From positions 1-33,066 of the forward strand of contig JAIPEJ010000010.1 in assembly GCA_021737225.1 (NCBI GenBank): 33,066 nucleotides of DNA. Reading direction: 5' to 3'. Shown one piece after another: positions 18,901 to 26,164 of the stretch. The DNA is from Desulfobacteraceae bacterium (GTDB lineage Bacteria; Desulfobacterota; Desulfobacteria; Desulfobacterales; Desulfosalsimonadaceae). The notes beneath the pieces are model-generated. The model ran no database searches. It saw nothing but the letters and a program-made list of their open reading frames with translations, and was not told the DNA's origin. The first letter of the stretch is position 1, and every line of letters starts with the position of its first letter. Both the position numbers and the translations under genes were made by a program.

Positions 18901-20139
18901 ATGGCGGAAAACGAAAAAAAACATGATCCCGAAAAGGAAAAGCGAAAGATCCAGACGGTTTCCCGGATGAAGGAGATCATGACCGATTATTACATCGAGG
19001 CCAAGGGCGCCCGGGAAAACGGGCGAAAAGTGGCCTGGATCACCAGCGGCGGACCGGTGGAGCCCCTGATTGCCATGGATGTGATTCCGGTGTACCCGGA
19101 AAATCACGGCGCTATGATCGGGGCCTCCAAAATGGGGGCACAGCTCTGCGAACGGGCCGAGGAGATGGGGTATTCCCGGGACCTGTGTTCATACGCCCGG
19201 GCCGATATCGGCGATGCGGTTGCCAAAACCGGCCCCATCGGCGGCCTTCCGGAGCCCGACATGCTGGTTTGCTGCAACAACATCTGCGGCACCGTGCTCA
19301 AGTGGTACGAGACCGCCGCCCGGTTTTTCAACGTGCCACTGTTTATCCTGGACACGCCGTTTATTCACCGGGAATTTACGGACTCGGCACGAAAATACGT
19401 GCTTTCCCAGATTTACGAATACATTTCGTTTCTGGAAACCCACTGCGGCAGGAAAATGGATTATGAGCACATGGAGGAAGTGGGCCGGCTTTCGGTGGAA
19501 GCCACGCAGCTCTGGCAGTCCGTGCTTGACACCTGCGCGCACAAGCCGGCGCCCATGACCGCGTTTGACGCCTTTTTTCACCTGGCCCTGATCGTCACCC
19601 TGCGGGGCACCCAGGTGACCGTGGACTACTACCGGCAATTGCTCGACGAATTAAACGACCGCATCGACCGGGGCATTGCCATGGTCCCCAATGAAAAGTA
19701 CCGGCTGCTGTGGGACAACCTGCCGGTCTGGTACCGTACCCGGTGGCTTTCGGATAAGTTTGCCGGCCATGATGCCGCACTGGTGGCCGATACCTATACT
19801 TCGGCCTGGAGCGGGATGCTGCCGGATATCACCGGACAGACGTTTCTCGAGGCCATGAGCGAAACCTACACCAAGGTTTATATCAATATTTCCATTGACC
19901 GGATGTTTGACATCGTGGCCGGCATGATCCGAAAATATGACGTGGACGGCATGGTGATGCATTCCAACCGGAGCTGTAAGCCCTATTCGCTGGGGCAGTA
20001 TGATCTTCGCCAGATGATCATGGACCGGCTCGGCGTGCCTACCCTGATCATCGAGGCCGACATGGTCGATGAGCGCAGTTTTTCGGAAAGCCAGATTGAC
20101 ACCCGGATTGATGCGTTCATGGAGACGCTCAAGGCATGA
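18901..20139 (+). CDS. 2-hydroxyacyl-CoA dehydratase / benzoyl-CoA reductase superfamily subunit (BcrB-like)
   Basis: 412 aa; ITSGGPVEPLIAMDVIPVYPENHGAMIGASKMG, CCNNICGTVLKWYETAARFFNVPLFILDTPF, MHSNRSCKPYSLGQYDLRQMIMDRLGVPTLIIEADMVD. Confidence 0.88.
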   Translation: MAENEKKHDPEKEKRKIQTVSRMKEIMTDYYIEAKGARENGRKVAWITSGGPVEPLIAMDVIPVYPENHGAMIGASKMGAQLCERAEEMGYSRDLCSYARADIGDAVAKTGPIGGLPEPDMLVCCNNICGTVLKWYETAARFFNVPLFILDTPFIHREFTDSARKYVLSQIYEYISFLETHCGRKMDYEHMEEVGRLSVEATQLWQSVLDTCAHKPAPMTAFDAFFHLALIVTLRGTQVTVDYYRQLLDELNDRIDRGIAMVPNEKYRLLWDNLPVWYRTRWLSDKFAGHDAALVADTYTSAWSGMLPDITGQTFLEAMSETYTKVYINISIDRMFDIVAGMIRKYDVDGMVMHSNRSCKPYSLGQYDLRQMIMDRLGVPTLIIEADMVDERSFSESQIDTRIDAFMETLKA

Positions 20140-20140
20140 T
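20129..20140 (+). repeat. Left direct repeat (TCAAGGCATGAT), candidate target-site duplication
   Basis: Identical 12-mer at 20289-20300; includes the stop codon of the upstream subunit. Confidence 0.7.
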
Positions 20141-20288
20141 GGCACCGTAAAAAGTCCAATGTCTGCGTTACGCGCAATTTCTCAGAATTTCATCACGCCA
20201 GCGGCGTGACTGCATTCTTCGAAATTGCGCAAGCCTTGATCTTGAACTTTTTACGGCACCATCTAAAATCAGACTTTTTACGAGTGCA
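20141..20288. mobile_element. MITE-like palindromic element (non-coding)
   Basis: ~124-bp imperfect palindrome 20139-20262 (ATGGCACCGTAAAAAGTCCAATG...GCAATTTC...TCACGCC-agc-GGCGTGA...GAAATTGCGC...AACTTTTTACGGCACCAT), then an outer terminus GACTTTTTACGAGTGCA (20272-20288) matching the left-end GTAAAAAGTC motif; flanked by 12-bp direct repeats. Confidence 0.75.
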
Positions 20289-20300
20289 TCAAGGCATGAT
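20289..20300 (+). repeat. Right direct repeat (TCAAGGCATGAT), candidate target-site duplication
   Basis: Identical to 20129-20140; contains the ATG of the activase gene. Confidence 0.7.
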
Positions 20301-21075
20301 TACCGCAGGCATCGATATTGGATCCATCACCGCCAAGGCGGCGTTAATTGAGGACAATCGGCTCTTGGGCACCCGGCTGCAGTTTACCGGCTACAATGCG
20401 CAGAAGGCCGGCAAAGCCGTGCTCGAAGAGCTGATTGCGCAAACCGGCGTGCAGCGGGAACAGATCGCCCTGGTCGTGTCCACGGGATACGGCAGAAACA
20501 GCGTGGATTTCGCGGACAAGGCCATTACCGAGATCACCTGTCACGGCGCCGGCGCCCATTTCATCGACCCGGAGACGCGTTTTGTCATTGACGTGGGCGG
20601 GCAGGACAGCAAGGTGATCAAGATCGACGCGGCCGGAAAGGTACTTGATTTTGCCATGAATGACAAGTGCGCCGCGGGCACGGGCCGGTTTCTGGAGGTC
20701 ATGGCCCGGGCCATGGAAGCCGATCTCGACGATTTCGGCGAAATTTCGGCAAGGGCGGGTAATCCCGCCAGCATCAGCAGTATCTGCACGGTGTTTGCCG
20801 AATCCGAGGTGATTTCCCTGATTTCCAAGGGAGAGACCCGCGAGAACATGATCGCGGGAATCCACGAATCAGTGGCCTCCCGGATCTCTGCCATGGCCCG
20901 GCGGGTGGGCGTTACCGAGCCCGTCATGATGACCGGCGGCGTGGCCAGAAATCCGGGCGTGGTCCGGGCGCTGGGGAAAAAACTGCGCGTTGAAATCCGG
21001 GTATCCCCCCACGCCCAGTTAAACGGCGCCATCGGCGCGGCCCTGCTTGCCGCGCGCATGCAGCAGGCGGCCTGA
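20296..21075 (+). CDS. ATP-dependent activase of BadF/BadG/BcrA/BcrD/HgdC family
   Basis: MITAGIDIGSITAKAALIEDNRLL..., DVGGQDSKVIKID, NDKCAAGTGRFLEVMA, ICTVFAESEVISL; both cluster Cys positions present. True start 20296; the ORF-track start at 20206 lies inside the inserted element. Confidence 0.92.
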   Translation: MITAGIDIGSITAKAALIEDNRLLGTRLQFTGYNAQKAGKAVLEELIAQTGVQREQIALVVSTGYGRNSVDFADKAITEITCHGAGAHFIDPETRFVIDVGGQDSKVIKIDAAGKVLDFAMNDKCAAGTGRFLEVMARAMEADLDDFGEISARAGNPASISSICTVFAESEVISLISKGETRENMIAGIHESVASRISAMARRVGVTEPVMMTGGVARNPGVVRALGKKLRVEIRVSPHAQLNGAIGAALLAARMQQAA

Positions 21076-21288: not shown

Positions 21289-22947
21289 ATGCCAGATCAC
21301 GTATTCTGGCGGCTGGGCAAAGCCGGTTTGCTGGCCGCCTTTTTTATGATGTTCGTGTGGGTCCTGTTTGCAAACGGATCCGGAGGCAACACAGCTGAAC
21401 AAAATCCGGACATTCCGGCAAACCGTGCAGATTCCCTGGAACTCCGGATTTATGAGAATGGCAAAACCCACCAGATGCCGCCCGCGATATTTATGCATGA
21501 CCGGCACACCCGTGCGTTAAAAGACCGGGATTGCAGTGCCTGCCACGAAGAAGCCGATGAAGGGGCCGGGGATGCCCTGGCCTTTGCATTCAAGGATATT
21601 CAGGATCTTTCCCCGGCGACGGCAAAAGAGCGGTACCATACCGAATGTATCGGCTGCCACAAGGACCGGGCCGGCAAATCTGAAAAAACCGGTCCGCTGG
21701 TGGAAAACTGCCGGGGCTGCCATCAGCCCCCATCCGATGCCAGGCCGCAGCGAAAACAGATTTCATTTGACCGGTCCCTGCATTTCAAGCACGAAAGCGC
21801 CGAGCCCATCACCTACCAGCCGGAAAAAAGTGATGACAATTGTGGCGCCTGCCATCATGTCTATGACGAGCAGGCCGAAGAGCTGATCTACAAGGAAGGC
21901 GAGGAGGGCTCCTGCCGCTACTGCCACAAGCCGCAGCGGGTCGATGACACGCGTTCCTTCCGAAACGCCGTGCATGATGACTGTGTTAACTGCCATCGCC
22001 GGTTCAAGAAAGATGACATCAAGGCCGGCCCGGTGGAATGCCGGGGATGCCACAGTGCCGAGGGCCTTGCCGAAATTGAAAAGATCCGGGACGTGCCGCG
22101 CCTTGAGCGCGGGCAGCCGGATGCACGGATCATGGCAGACTGGCTTGCAGCCGCCGGGGAATCCGGCGAAATGCCCGCCCAGTACATGAAGGCGGCGGCC
22201 TTTGACCATCTGCAGCATGAAAATGCGGCCGCGGAGACCTGCCGCAAATGCCACCACGAATCCCTGGAAGCATGCCGCGAGTGTCACAAAAGAAAGGGCG
22301 ACGAGGCGGGCGGCTTTGTCTCCCTGGAGCGGGCCATGCACGCCATGGACTCGGAGAGAAGCTGCACGGGCTGCCACAAGGATCAGAATGCGGTCGGCGA
22401 GTGCGCAGGATGCCACGCGCAGATGCCGGAAGCCCGTTTTGCCGGCCTGGACTGTGAAGCCTGCCATGCACTGGGCGCCGAGCGGTTAAAGCCACTGTCG
22501 ATGGGAGACGAGGAGAAAAAAGCCGTTGCCGAATCCGCAGTGAAGGCCCGGCCGGACCGGGTCCAAACCGTGGATGCGGACAAGATTCCGGAAAAAGTGG
22601 AAATCGATGCCATGGTGGATGAATACCAGGCCGCGCAAATGCCCCATCGCAAGATCGTGCAGACCCTGGTCGATAAGATCGGTGATAACTCGCTGGCTGC
22701 CGTGTTTCACAAAGAAGCGCAAACCCTGTGCACGGGGTGCCACCACAACAGTCCGCCGAGCCTGAATCCGCCGAAGTGCGCAAGCTGCCATACCGCAGCC
22801 GCCAATGCTTTCTCCGGATCGAACCGGCCCGGACTGAAGGCGGCCTATCACGGTCAATGCATCGAATGCCACGAGCAGATGGGCCTGGAAGAGCCGGCGG
22901 CCACCGATTGCACGGCGTGCCATGAAGAACGCAACGAAAATGGATAG
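21289..22947 (+). CDS. hmcA: HmcA, 16-heme high-molecular-mass cytochrome c
   Basis: 552 aa with hydrophobic N-terminal signal and 16 CXXCH motifs counted (CSACH, CIGCH, CRGCH, CGACH, CRYCH, CVNCH, CRGCH, CRKCH, CRECH, CTGCH, CAGCH, CEACH, CTGCH, CASCH, CIECH, CTACH); followed by hmcB-F. Confidence 0.93.
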   Translation: MPDHVFWRLGKAGLLAAFFMMFVWVLFANGSGGNTAEQNPDIPANRADSLELRIYENGKTHQMPPAIFMHDRHTRALKDRDCSACHEEADEGAGDALAFAFKDIQDLSPATAKERYHTECIGCHKDRAGKSEKTGPLVENCRGCHQPPSDARPQRKQISFDRSLHFKHESAEPITYQPEKSDDNCGACHHVYDEQAEELIYKEGEEGSCRYCHKPQRVDDTRSFRNAVHDDCVNCHRRFKKDDIKAGPVECRGCHSAEGLAEIEKIRDVPRLERGQPDARIMADWLAAAGESGEMPAQYMKAAAFDHLQHENAAAETCRKCHHESLEACRECHKRKGDEAGGFVSLERAMHAMDSERSCTGCHKDQNAVGECAGCHAQMPEARFAGLDCEACHALGAERLKPLSMGDEEKKAVAESAVKARPDRVQTVDADKIPEKVEIDAMVDEYQAAQMPHRKIVQTLVDKIGDNSLAAVFHKEAQTLCTGCHHNSPPSLNPPKCASCHTAAANAFSGSNRPGLKAAYHGQCIECHEQMGLEEPAATDCTACHEERNENG

Positions 22948-22995
22948 CCGATGCCCCGGCAACGGGGTGTCAACGCAATAGACAAAGAGGAGACT

Positions 22996-24078
22996 ATGGG
23001 GATCACCCGGAGGCAATTGTTCGGATGGATGGCTGCAGCAGGTGCCGGTGCGCTGGCCCCGGGCGTTGCAAAGGCGGCCACCGGTAAACATTTTTCCGGA
23101 TACCCGGAAAGTTTCGGCGTGCTCCACGATATCACCCACTGCATCGGTTGCCGCAAGTGTGAGGCGGCCTGCAACGAGGTCAACGATCTGCCGGCCCCGG
23201 ATAAGCCTTTTGATGATTTAAAAGTGCTGCAGGACAAGCGCCAGCTAAATGCGACCGCATACACGGTGGTCAACCGGTATCAGTTTGAAAGCGCATCCGG
23301 GCCGCTTTACGTGAAAACCCAGTGTAATCATTGCCTGGAGCCGGCATGCGCATCTGCGTGTTTTGTCAAGGCCCTGCGCAAGGATGAAACCGGGGCGGTT
23401 GTCTATGATGCCTCCTTGTGTGTGGGGTGCCGGTACTGCATGATTGCATGCCCGTTCCAGGTGCCGGCCTATGAATATGACAAGGCCTTTACCCCCAGGG
23501 TCATGAAGTGTACCCTCTGTTATCCGAGAATCCGGGAAGGCAAGCTTCCGGGCTGCGTGGCCGCCTGTCCCAAGGAGGCCCTTACATTCGGCAAGCGCGA
23601 TGAGCTGATCAAGGAGGCGCAAAGGCGCATCAACCGAAATCCGGAAAAATACGTGGATCATATCTACGGGCAGTTCGAGATGGGCGGCACCAGTTGGCTC
23701 TACCTGTCCCCTCGGTCCTTTTCCAGCCTGGGCATGCGCGAGGATTTAGGCGACAAGGCGGCACCTGAGTACACTTCGGGGGCATTGGCTGTGGTGCCCA
23801 TGGCGGTTACTGCCGGGGCGGTTCTGCTGACCGGGATATATGCCATTGCCCGGCGCAGGGAGCAGATCGCCGAGGACGAGCGGCAGGCCGCAGTGGCGCA
23901 AACCCGCGCCCAGGCCGAGGAAGAGATGAAACAGAAGCTGGCCGAGCAGAAAAAGGCGGCTGACAAGGAAAGGGAATCCGTTGTGAAGCGGGAAGTGGAA
24001 AAAGCGCTCAAGGAGGCCGAAGAACAGCGGGCTGCGGATAAACCGGCCGCAGATGATGACAGCGGCAAGGAGACATAG
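22996..24078 (+). CDS. hmcB: HmcB, Tat-exported ferredoxin-like 4Fe-4S protein with C-terminal TM and coiled coil
   Basis: MGITRRQLFGWMAAAGAGALAPG Tat-like signal; CIGCRKCEAAC, CNHCLEPACASAC, CVGCRYCMIACPF, CTLCYPRIREGKLPGCVAAC. Internal start 22996 preferred over 22951. Confidence 0.92.
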   Translation: MGITRRQLFGWMAAAGAGALAPGVAKAATGKHFSGYPESFGVLHDITHCIGCRKCEAACNEVNDLPAPDKPFDDLKVLQDKRQLNATAYTVVNRYQFESASGPLYVKTQCNHCLEPACASACFVKALRKDETGAVVYDASLCVGCRYCMIACPFQVPAYEYDKAFTPRVMKCTLCYPRIREGKLPGCVAACPKEALTFGKRDELIKEAQRRINRNPEKYVDHIYGQFEMGGTSWLYLSPRSFSSLGMREDLGDKAAPEYTSGALAVVPMAVTAGAVLLTGIYAIARRREQIAEDERQAAVAQTRAQAEEEMKQKLAEQKKAADKERESVVKREVEKALKEAEEQRAADKPAADDDSGKET

Positions 24079-24081
24079 GAA

Positions 24082-25272
24082 ATGCAACAGATATCCGCCT
24101 CTTTGAAAAACGCGGCAAAGCCGTCCGTCTGGACCCCGTTTAACATCGTGGCCGGCATCATCATCGCCGTGGGTCTCGTGCTTACGGTGATCCGTTTTAC
24201 CGGCGGGCTGGGCGCGGTCACCAACCTGGATCATCACACGCCCTGGGGCCTGTGGATCGGGTTTGACCTGTTGTGCGGCGTCGCCCTGGCAGCCGGCGGA
24301 TACATGACATCTGCGGCCTGCTATATTTTTGGCCTGAAGCGTTTTCATTCCGCCGTGCGCCCGGCCATACTGACCGCATTTCTGGGATATGCCCTGGTGG
24401 TCCTGGCGCTGCACTATGACGTGGGCCGGCCCTGGCGGCTGCCGTACCCGATTTTTTATTCCCAGGGGACCTCTTCGCTGCTGTTCGAGGTGGCGCTGTG
24501 CGTGTTTTTGTATCTCACGGTATTGTTTGTCGAGTTCACCCCGGCCGCGCTCGAGTGGCTGGGCCTGAAGCGGGCCAGAAACCTGGTGGTGCGGCTGGTG
24601 CTGGTGCTGACTATCTTCGGGGTGCTTCTTTCGACCCTGCACCAGTCGTCTCTGGGGGCACTTTACCTGATTGCGCCCTCAAAGCTGCATCCGCTATGGT
24701 ATTCTTCCTACCTGGCCTTGTTTTTCTTTGTATCCAGCATGTTTGCCGGGCTGTCCATGGTTATATTTGAAAGCACGCTTTCCCACCGGTTTCTGCACCA
24801 CAAGATGGACGAACATCACATCGAGCAGAGCCACGGCGTGGCCATCAGCTTTGCCAAGGCCGCGTCCTTTATCATGGTGGGGTATCTGTTCATGCAGATG
24901 ATCGGGCTGGCCGCGGACAATGACTGGCATTATCTGACCACCGGCTGGGGGGCTTGGTACCTGGTGGAAATGATCGGGTTTGTGGCCCTGCCGGCGTTTT
25001 TCTTTGCCGTGGGTTCGCGCGAGCGCAACCTGCGCCTGATTCGCTGGACAGCCCTGTGGGCGGTGCTGGGGATTGTGTTGAACCGGCTCAACGTTTCCCT
25101 GGTGGCATTTAACTGGCAATTGCCGGCGGATCAGCGCTATTTCCCGAGCTGGATGGAAGTGGGGATCACGCTGTTTATCGTCACGCTCGGGGTGGTGGCC
25201 TACCGGTTTATTGCCACCCGGATGCCGATTTTTTATGAACATCCGGATTACAAGGAGCAACAGGAAGAGTGA
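24082..25272 (+). CDS. hmcC: HmcC, NrfD/DsrP-family membrane protein
   Basis: 396 aa polytopic; TPWGLWIGFDLLCGVALAAGGYMTSAACYIFGLKRFHSAVRPAILTAFLGY; gene order. Confidence 0.92.
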   Translation: MQQISASLKNAAKPSVWTPFNIVAGIIIAVGLVLTVIRFTGGLGAVTNLDHHTPWGLWIGFDLLCGVALAAGGYMTSAACYIFGLKRFHSAVRPAILTAFLGYALVVLALHYDVGRPWRLPYPIFYSQGTSSLLFEVALCVFLYLTVLFVEFTPAALEWLGLKRARNLVVRLVLVLTIFGVLLSTLHQSSLGALYLIAPSKLHPLWYSSYLALFFFVSSMFAGLSMVIFESTLSHRFLHHKMDEHHIEQSHGVAISFAKAASFIMVGYLFMQMIGLAADNDWHYLTTGWGAWYLVEMIGFVALPAFFFAVGSRERNLRLIRWTALWAVLGIVLNRLNVSLVAFNWQLPADQRYFPSWMEVGITLFIVTLGVVAYRFIATRMPIFYEHPDYKEQQEE

Positions 25273-25273
25273 C

Positions 25274-25417
25274 ATGGAACAGGCATTTTTTACACTCCAG
25301 GAATTTATGACCCATACCAAGGCGGTGGTGTATCTGCTGATGGCCGCCGCCCTGATCGGTCTGCCCCTTTTCTGGCTGTTTTTGACCGGACGGGACGAAA
25401 AAAAGCGCACGTTTTAG
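25274..25417 (+). CDS. hmcD: HmcD, small membrane protein (47 aa)
   Basis: MEQAFFTLQEFMTHTKAVVYLLMAAALIGLPLFWLFLTGRDEKKRTF; position between hmcC and hmcE. Confidence 0.85.
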   Translation: MEQAFFTLQEFMTHTKAVVYLLMAAALIGLPLFWLFLTGRDEKKRTF

Positions 25418-25486
25418 AAATATGCGGCAGGCAACTTCAACATACGGCAAGGTTGCCCGGAAACCCGGGGCAAGGAGGAACACCCG

Positions 25487-26164
25487 ATGCATGCATTTTT
25501 GACCGGCCCGATGTTTTACATCTCCATTGCGGTTCTTGTTATCGGACTGCTGGTACGGGTGGTACGATATATCCGGGGGCTGGACTGGAAGCTGGACCGG
25601 GTGGCATACCGGGCGCACCGCAAAGCGGGCATGAAAGGGGCCGCCAGGTCGATTTTCAAGTGGCTGGTGCCGTTTGGCACGCGAAGCTGGCGGGTTCAGC
25701 CGGTGATGACCGTGGTGTTTTTCGTGTTCCATATCGGCGTGGTGGCAGTGCCGCTTTTTCTGCTGGCCCATAACATGTTCCTGGAGGAAAAGCTGGGTTT
25801 CTCGTTTTTCACCCTGCCGGCCCTGGCTGCCGACATACTGAGCTGGGGCGTGCTGGCTGCACTCCTGATACTGGTGCTGCGCCGGATTGCGCTGCCCGAG
25901 GTGCGCATCCTGACCACGTTTCATGATTATTTTATCCTTGCACTGACTGCGGCGCCTTTTGTTACGGGTCTGATCTGCCGGTATGATCCGGCAAACTACG
26001 ATTTCTGGCTGCTGATCCATATCGCCGCAGGTGAGCTTCTGCTGATCCTGATTCCGTTTACCAAGCTTTCCCACGTGGTTACGTTTTTTCTCTCCCGGGC
26101 GCAGATCGGCATGGACTTCGGCATCAAGCGCGGCGGCATGAAGGGCAAGGGAATGGCCTGGTAG
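25487..26164 (+). CDS. hmcE: HmcE, cytochrome b / NarI-like membrane subunit
   Basis: 225 aa; [59 protein letters not shown]. Confidence 0.9.

Follow-up and report, generated by a model that had tools for sequence, protein, structure and literature searches.

The junction analysed here raises the question of how a long palindromic segment came to lie exactly between the stop codon of one gene and the start codon of the next with both genes left intact. It is situated in a 33,066-nucleotide stretch of DNA from a Desulfobacteraceae bacterium, here called the window. The 12-mer TCAAGGCATGAT is present twice, at 20129-20140 and 20289-20300, on either side of a palindromic non-coding segment, as had been described in a previous interpretation made from the letters alone (the sequence-only reading). 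That reading had also called for folding of the RNA. The segment between the repeats gave a minimum free energy of -60.7 kcal/mol and was far more stable than shuffled sequence (z -5.5; equal stability in 0 of 200 shuffles). The genes on both sides were assigned as follows.

18901-20139, plus strand: HGD-D family subunit (2-hydroxyacyl-CoA dehydratase / benzoyl-CoA reductase type), PF06050 at 268 bits.
20296-21075, plus strand: acyl-CoA dehydratase activase with its ATG at 20296, TIGR00241 at 294 bits against a cut-off of 125, and PF01869.

The activase identity proposed earlier was thus confirmed by the cut-off of its model, whereas the upstream gene, which had been called BcrB-like, was assigned as an HGD-D subunit but passed no BcrB-specific cut-off. 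The stop codon TGA of the subunit gene (20137-20139) is formed by the first three bases of the element delimited below, and the AAGG of the right duplication, just upstream of the activase ATG, is a possible ribosome-binding site. A frame check agreed with the earlier view that the insertion sits exactly at the stop codon and leaves the downstream start intact; both reading frames are unbroken, and stop and start are 156 nt apart. Removal of the element and one repeat unit in silico generated CTCAAGGCATGATTACCGCAGGC / CTCAAGGCATGATTACC, in which the stop and the start overlap as ATGA.

The ends of the element were set by comparison with other copies. Since the similarity of the aligned copies begins at TGATGG and stops at CATCA, the element was assigned to 20137-20291 (155 bp, TGATGG...GCATCA), and AAGGCATGAT lies outside. 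The element contains part of both 12-mers. Its left end recurs internally in inverted orientation, which closes a palindrome of ~126 bp; beyond this lies a second right end, the outer one.

20132-20136, plus strand: target-site duplication AGGCA, left copy, with the same geometry in other copies.
20137-20291, plus strand: non-autonomous MITE, TGATGG...GCATCA, delimited by copies in its own genome and in relatives and by their alignment.
20137-20156, plus strand: left terminal inverted repeat TGATGGCACCGTAAAAAGTC, matching the right end at 16 of 20 positions and the ends of autonomous elements at 16-19 of 20.
20172-20230, plus strand: central imperfect hairpin of the palindrome, with 28-nt arms and a 3-nt loop.
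20242-20263, minus strand: inverted copy of the left end inside the element, which reads TTGAACTTTTTACGGCACCATC on the plus strand and closes the long palindrome.
20272-20291, minus strand: right terminal inverted repeat, reading TGATGCACTCGTAAAAAGTC on that strand, with 19 of 20 positions identical to the right end of the autonomous element L356.
20292-20296, plus strand: target-site duplication AGGCA, right copy.

The arms at 20138-20159 and 20242-20263 are 86% complementary, and nine pairs of the palindrome showed compensatory double changes among 28 aligned copies. The tips of the central hairpin are swapped between copies, TCACGCC..GGCGTGA versus CGTACG..AAGTACG (alignment A2, around columns 57-75); the two are unrelated, and each is self-complementary. 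Neither Rfam nor the plasmid collection contained a match to the element.

The 12-bp target duplication claimed by the sequence-only reading did not hold. The genuine duplication is 5 bp (AGGCA), or 7 bp when the conserved A and T that frame it are included (AAGGCAT, 20131-20137 for the left copy). As for the outer TC and GA(T) of the 12-mer, they belong to the end of the element at one side and to the target at the other; the repeat reaches 12 bp because the target resembles the element ends. In the host genome, an exact 6-7 bp duplication (outer A and T counted) was found at 8 of 9 copies with both ends intact. In a congener (G004), an exact 5-7 bp duplication flanked 61 copies whose two ends were intact; in 57 cases it read A...T. 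When left flanks of the congener copies were paired with wrong right flanks, a mean of 0.5 duplications was obtained instead of 61; since a duplication was the criterion by which these 61 copies were chosen, they show a signal far above chance, while the rate among all copies is lower. On the length of the duplication, two copies point in different directions: L372 favours a 4-5 bp duplication with TG..CA ends, and one congener copy (AACCAA) favours 6-7 bp with GATG..CATC ends.

The element belongs to a family with dozens to hundreds of copies in bacteria related to sulfate reducers. Searches of the host genome and of relatives, as proposed with the earlier interpretation, revealed about a dozen near-full copies plus fragments in the host (a 2.67-Mb draft, 77% complete) and the GTAAAAAGTC-ended family in 29 of 40 relatives' genomes, which bears out the earlier statement that such palindromes are scattered through relatives. 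With at most one mismatch, the terminal pattern TGATGNNNNNGTAAAAAGT matched 124 times in the host genome, compared with once for the reversed control. The congener G004, on which the copy statistics rest, has 110 copies of at least 60 bits in 2.4 Mb. The densest genome seen was that of G014, with ~190 end-pattern matches per strand in 3.2 Mb; it also holds an autonomous copy. A second abundant subfamily of ~115 bp with the ends TGATGAATTCGTAAAAAGT / TGATAAGCCTGTAAAAAGT was observed in G000 (e.g. L356:3338-3381, L027).

The description of the segment as MITE-like was therefore upheld: it is short (155 bp) and non-coding, has terminal inverted repeats, shows target-site duplications at many loci (8 of 9 own copies; 61 in the congener), is dispersed in high copy number, and shares its ends with autonomous transposons (15-19 of 20 positions in L356 and L372). 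High copy number, a palindromic structure and a mostly extragenic location would also fit a REP/RAYT-type or Correia-type palindromic repeat. This identity is contradicted by the consistent 4-5 bp duplications between A and T, with no duplication of TA alone, and by 20-bp terminal repeats that match a DDE element; REP/RAYT repeats lack target duplications and have a Y1 transposase as partner, and Correia or IS630-type elements follow a TA rule that is absent here. We consider it very improbable. Even more remote is an assembly artefact that joined two loci through a repeat. Several draft contigs do end inside copies of the element, but the duplication is perfect on both sides and the order of the two genes is kept in relatives.

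The sequence-only reading had suggested a search for a transposase with matching terminal inverted repeats. Searches with DDE_Tnp_1 in relatives led to large open frames, and elements of ~1.9 kb with the same ends were found around them. Two of these, each from a different genome, were read over their whole length; their likeness to the MITE lies in the ends. One (G000:C76:7436-9336; 1901 bp) has the duplication AAAACTT and a large transposase frame, and the other (G014:C1:131-2038; 1908 bp) has the duplication AAATT, which was read by eye since the scripted test demanded an outer A and T and rejected it. Their transposases (583 and 580 aa) are 54% identical and matched PF13751 (DDE_Tnp_1_6) at 53-59 bits and PF05598 (DUF772) at 28-43 bits, both above the cut-offs; we take these domains to be associated with the IS1182 family. 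The best NCBIfam model was indeed IS1182, at 148-152 bits against a cut-off of 270, and a palindromic target, a trait reported for some members of that family (PMC5678879), is seen in the TTCAANNTTGAA-like logo. The partner is IS1182-like, and with a score below the cut-off its membership in IS1182 is not established. The end motif was found at only 12 places in G034, a genome of a single contig, and one of these is 112 bp upstream of a homologous transposase gene. Judged by shared ends, the 1.9-kb elements encoding a ~580-aa DDE transposase are likely to be the autonomous partner of the MITE.

Two other types of transposase were considered as partners: rve transposases (PF00665) were never flanked by a matching end pair, and the IS1380 type (PF13701) gave few matches and no matching ends. 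Among paired ends at most 5 kb apart in G004, no autonomous copy was found, only composites of 290-605 bp. In several such copies (C1 214053-214435, C1 436220-436513, C3 310089-310445) the right end is broken at the same point (AGACTT/CCAAGGAAGTCCAAGG) by another repeat, and the outer duplications are kept.

We examined why a MITE should lie in a stop codon. Without the stop-codon cases, the target logo was still palindromic, about TTCAANN(N)TTGAA. Read as triplets it is TYA-N4/5-TRA, which resembles the stop codons TGA and TAA as well as the ends of the element itself. At least one half-site was stop-like in 41 of 60 targets, compared with 30% of background non-coding A..T sites, and both were stop-like in 13 of 60, compared with 2.6%. 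In the reconstructed empty sequence of G004, 9 of 61 insertions coincided exactly with the first base of a predicted gene's stop codon, whereas 1.2 were expected from the 48 non-coding insertions (p = 3e-6). Genes were called with a home-made hexamer model; under strict gene filters, 6 exact insertions were obtained against 0.8-1.0. The native stop codon was TAA or TGA in all nine cases. No insertion was within 1-5 nt of a stop, six were at 6-10 nt (2.0 expected), and 14 were more than 160 nt away (28.7 expected). With the stop-like motif taken into account, the surplus at real stop codons shrank to 8 observed against 2.7 expected (p = 0.004). We read the effect as mostly motif mimicry; the remaining excess could be an extra preference or a survival bias.

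In the host genome, 4 of the 9 intact copies sit in native stop codons. At stop-codon insertions the TGA of the element replaces the stop each time. The genes concerned encode beta clamp-like (dnaN-like), DnaJ, permease, fumarase-type lyase, LepA, GGDEF and methyltransferase proteins, several of which, LepA for example, have complete C-terminal domains. Because the preferred targets look like stop codons, the element can insert at the end of a gene and leave the protein whole. The orthologue of the HGD-D subunit gene has been struck in other genomes: in G024, from another genus of the same family, a different subfamily is in its stop codon (duplication AAGGCTT, native TAG), and in G019 a third copy begins at that stop codon without a clean duplication.

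Taken together, we give a probability of roughly 0.87 to the explanation that the segment is a copy of a high-copy MITE which has a likely DDE partner, prefers stop-like palindromic targets and would have taken over a stop codon. Its family is characterised by the ends TGA(T/C)G...CATCA with GTAAAAAGTC and by 4-5 bp duplications flanked by A and T. The transposase would cut beside a stop codon that serves as a half-site, the leading TGA of the element would fall in frame and become the stop codon, and the original one would remain, displaced, on the far side of the element. In the window, the element supplies the stop of the HGD-D subunit gene and sets that gene apart from the activase gene by the 156 nt. 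The object is of an ordinary kind, a MITE, with the unusual trait that its targets and ends mimic stop codons. A further step, which we advance tentatively and at less than even odds, is that the target recognition of this DDE transposon/MITE lineage has converged on stop codons, with the TRA half-site and TGA ends rebuilding the stop automatically. If so, such elements could reach the ends of essential genes (lepA, dnaN-like, dnaJ) with no cost to the coding sequence.

The history of this particular junction was approached by comparing 29 orthologous junctions, five congeners being among the genomes compared. The restored ATGA overlap had been taken as evidence that the element split an ancestral, translationally coupled junction and that the hairpin could now alter the ratio of enzyme to activase or create a processing or attenuation site. 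The overlap obtained by excising one repeat unit agrees with this, and so does G013, the only other family member with an ATGA overlap here; L318, one of the more distant genomes, has an equally large overlap in which the start is GTG. However, all five congeners have spacers of 34-149 nt between the two genes, including a sister genome with a 97% identical protein and a 149-nt spacer (G008, matching assembly JAGXKN010000010.1, isolate GSL_GB14_8). The subunit gene ends in AAATCC-TGA in four of them (G008, G004, G003, G001) and in AAGGCA-TGA in the window. A fused ATGA junction is therefore not what is seen in the genus. The earlier interpretation had named the absence of the fused AAGGCATGATTACC from orthologous junctions without the element as refuting it; element-free orthologues of congeners, none of them a same-species site, do not have it, and by this criterion that part fails. 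A consensus scan of the element also found no intrinsic terminator. An ancestral coupled junction with a tuning hairpin thus appears unlikely.

The divergent ending raises a second possibility, namely that the insertion first occurred upstream of the activase gene and a later deletion fused the HGD-D gene to the left duplication, the element supplying the lost stop. In support of this, the last two codons look derived when compared with the four congeners; against it, such an ending can be native, since in G007 the last codons likewise encode Lys-Ala (AAGGCC) and in G047 AAGGCA precedes the gene's own TAG. We regard this order of events as conceivable but somewhat less probable than its negation. 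For the takeover by the MITE, the comparison is compatible with insertion and loss of an ancestral spacer in either order: the spacer may have gone before the insertion, or the element may have entered at the edge of one gene, with a subsequent deletion bringing the other gene up to the duplication.

The element is assumed by default to be a passive hairpin spacer in the mRNA. After the TGA, the HGD-D frame stays open across the element (51 codons, 20137-20298) as far as the activase ATG. Read-through at this TGA would fuse both proteins, and the open frame is probably a coincidence.

Among known systems, the IS1182 family is nearest in its transposase. Inverted-repeat targets have been reported for IS1272 and some IS1182-family members (PMC5678879), and a 4-bp duplication is recorded for ISPse1 of this family (PMC3281130). 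In contrast to the present element, which keeps a 10-12-bp palindrome and duplicates its centre, IS1272 replaces a 22-30-bp inverted-repeat target without duplication (PMC5678879). The following comparisons draw on sections of one source (PMC2229807). Yersinia YPAL/RU-2 is likewise a small palindromic mobile sequence with targets at or near dyad symmetry, but YPAL has 3-26 bp duplications and internal inverted repeats, whereas terminal repeats, 4-5 bp duplications and a partner transposase are found here. RUP (Streptococcus pneumoniae, IS630-Spn1) and Correia/NEMIS are also MITEs of 100-155 bp, and RUP, with ~100 copies, is linked to an IS through common ends as well; unlike the MITE here, RUP has a TA target and IS630-type ends. 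Stop-codon replacement is not among the features of RUP and Correia/NEMIS reported in these sections. In the open-access literature we found no paper on stop-codon replacement by a bacterial element and none on MITEs in Desulfobacterota. The MITE family is new, and an abundant, apparently hitherto undescribed repeat of Desulfobacterales is now linked to a transposase.

These results provide a sequence rule, a TYA-N4/5-TRA target combined with TGA ends, by which mobile elements may build up in a gene-dense genome with genes unbroken. For annotation in this clade, it is to be expected that the element provides the stop of some genes and that many hairpins between genes are mobile DNA rather than regulatory structures. 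The copies at lepA, dnaJ and the HGD-D/activase operon offer test cases for effects on downstream expression. In the window, the genes downstream of the activase gene (21289-26164) encode a multihaem class III cytochrome, a 4Fe-4S protein, and NrfD-like and nitrate-reductase-gamma-like proteins, which resemble a membrane electron-transfer complex of the Hmc/Tmc type.
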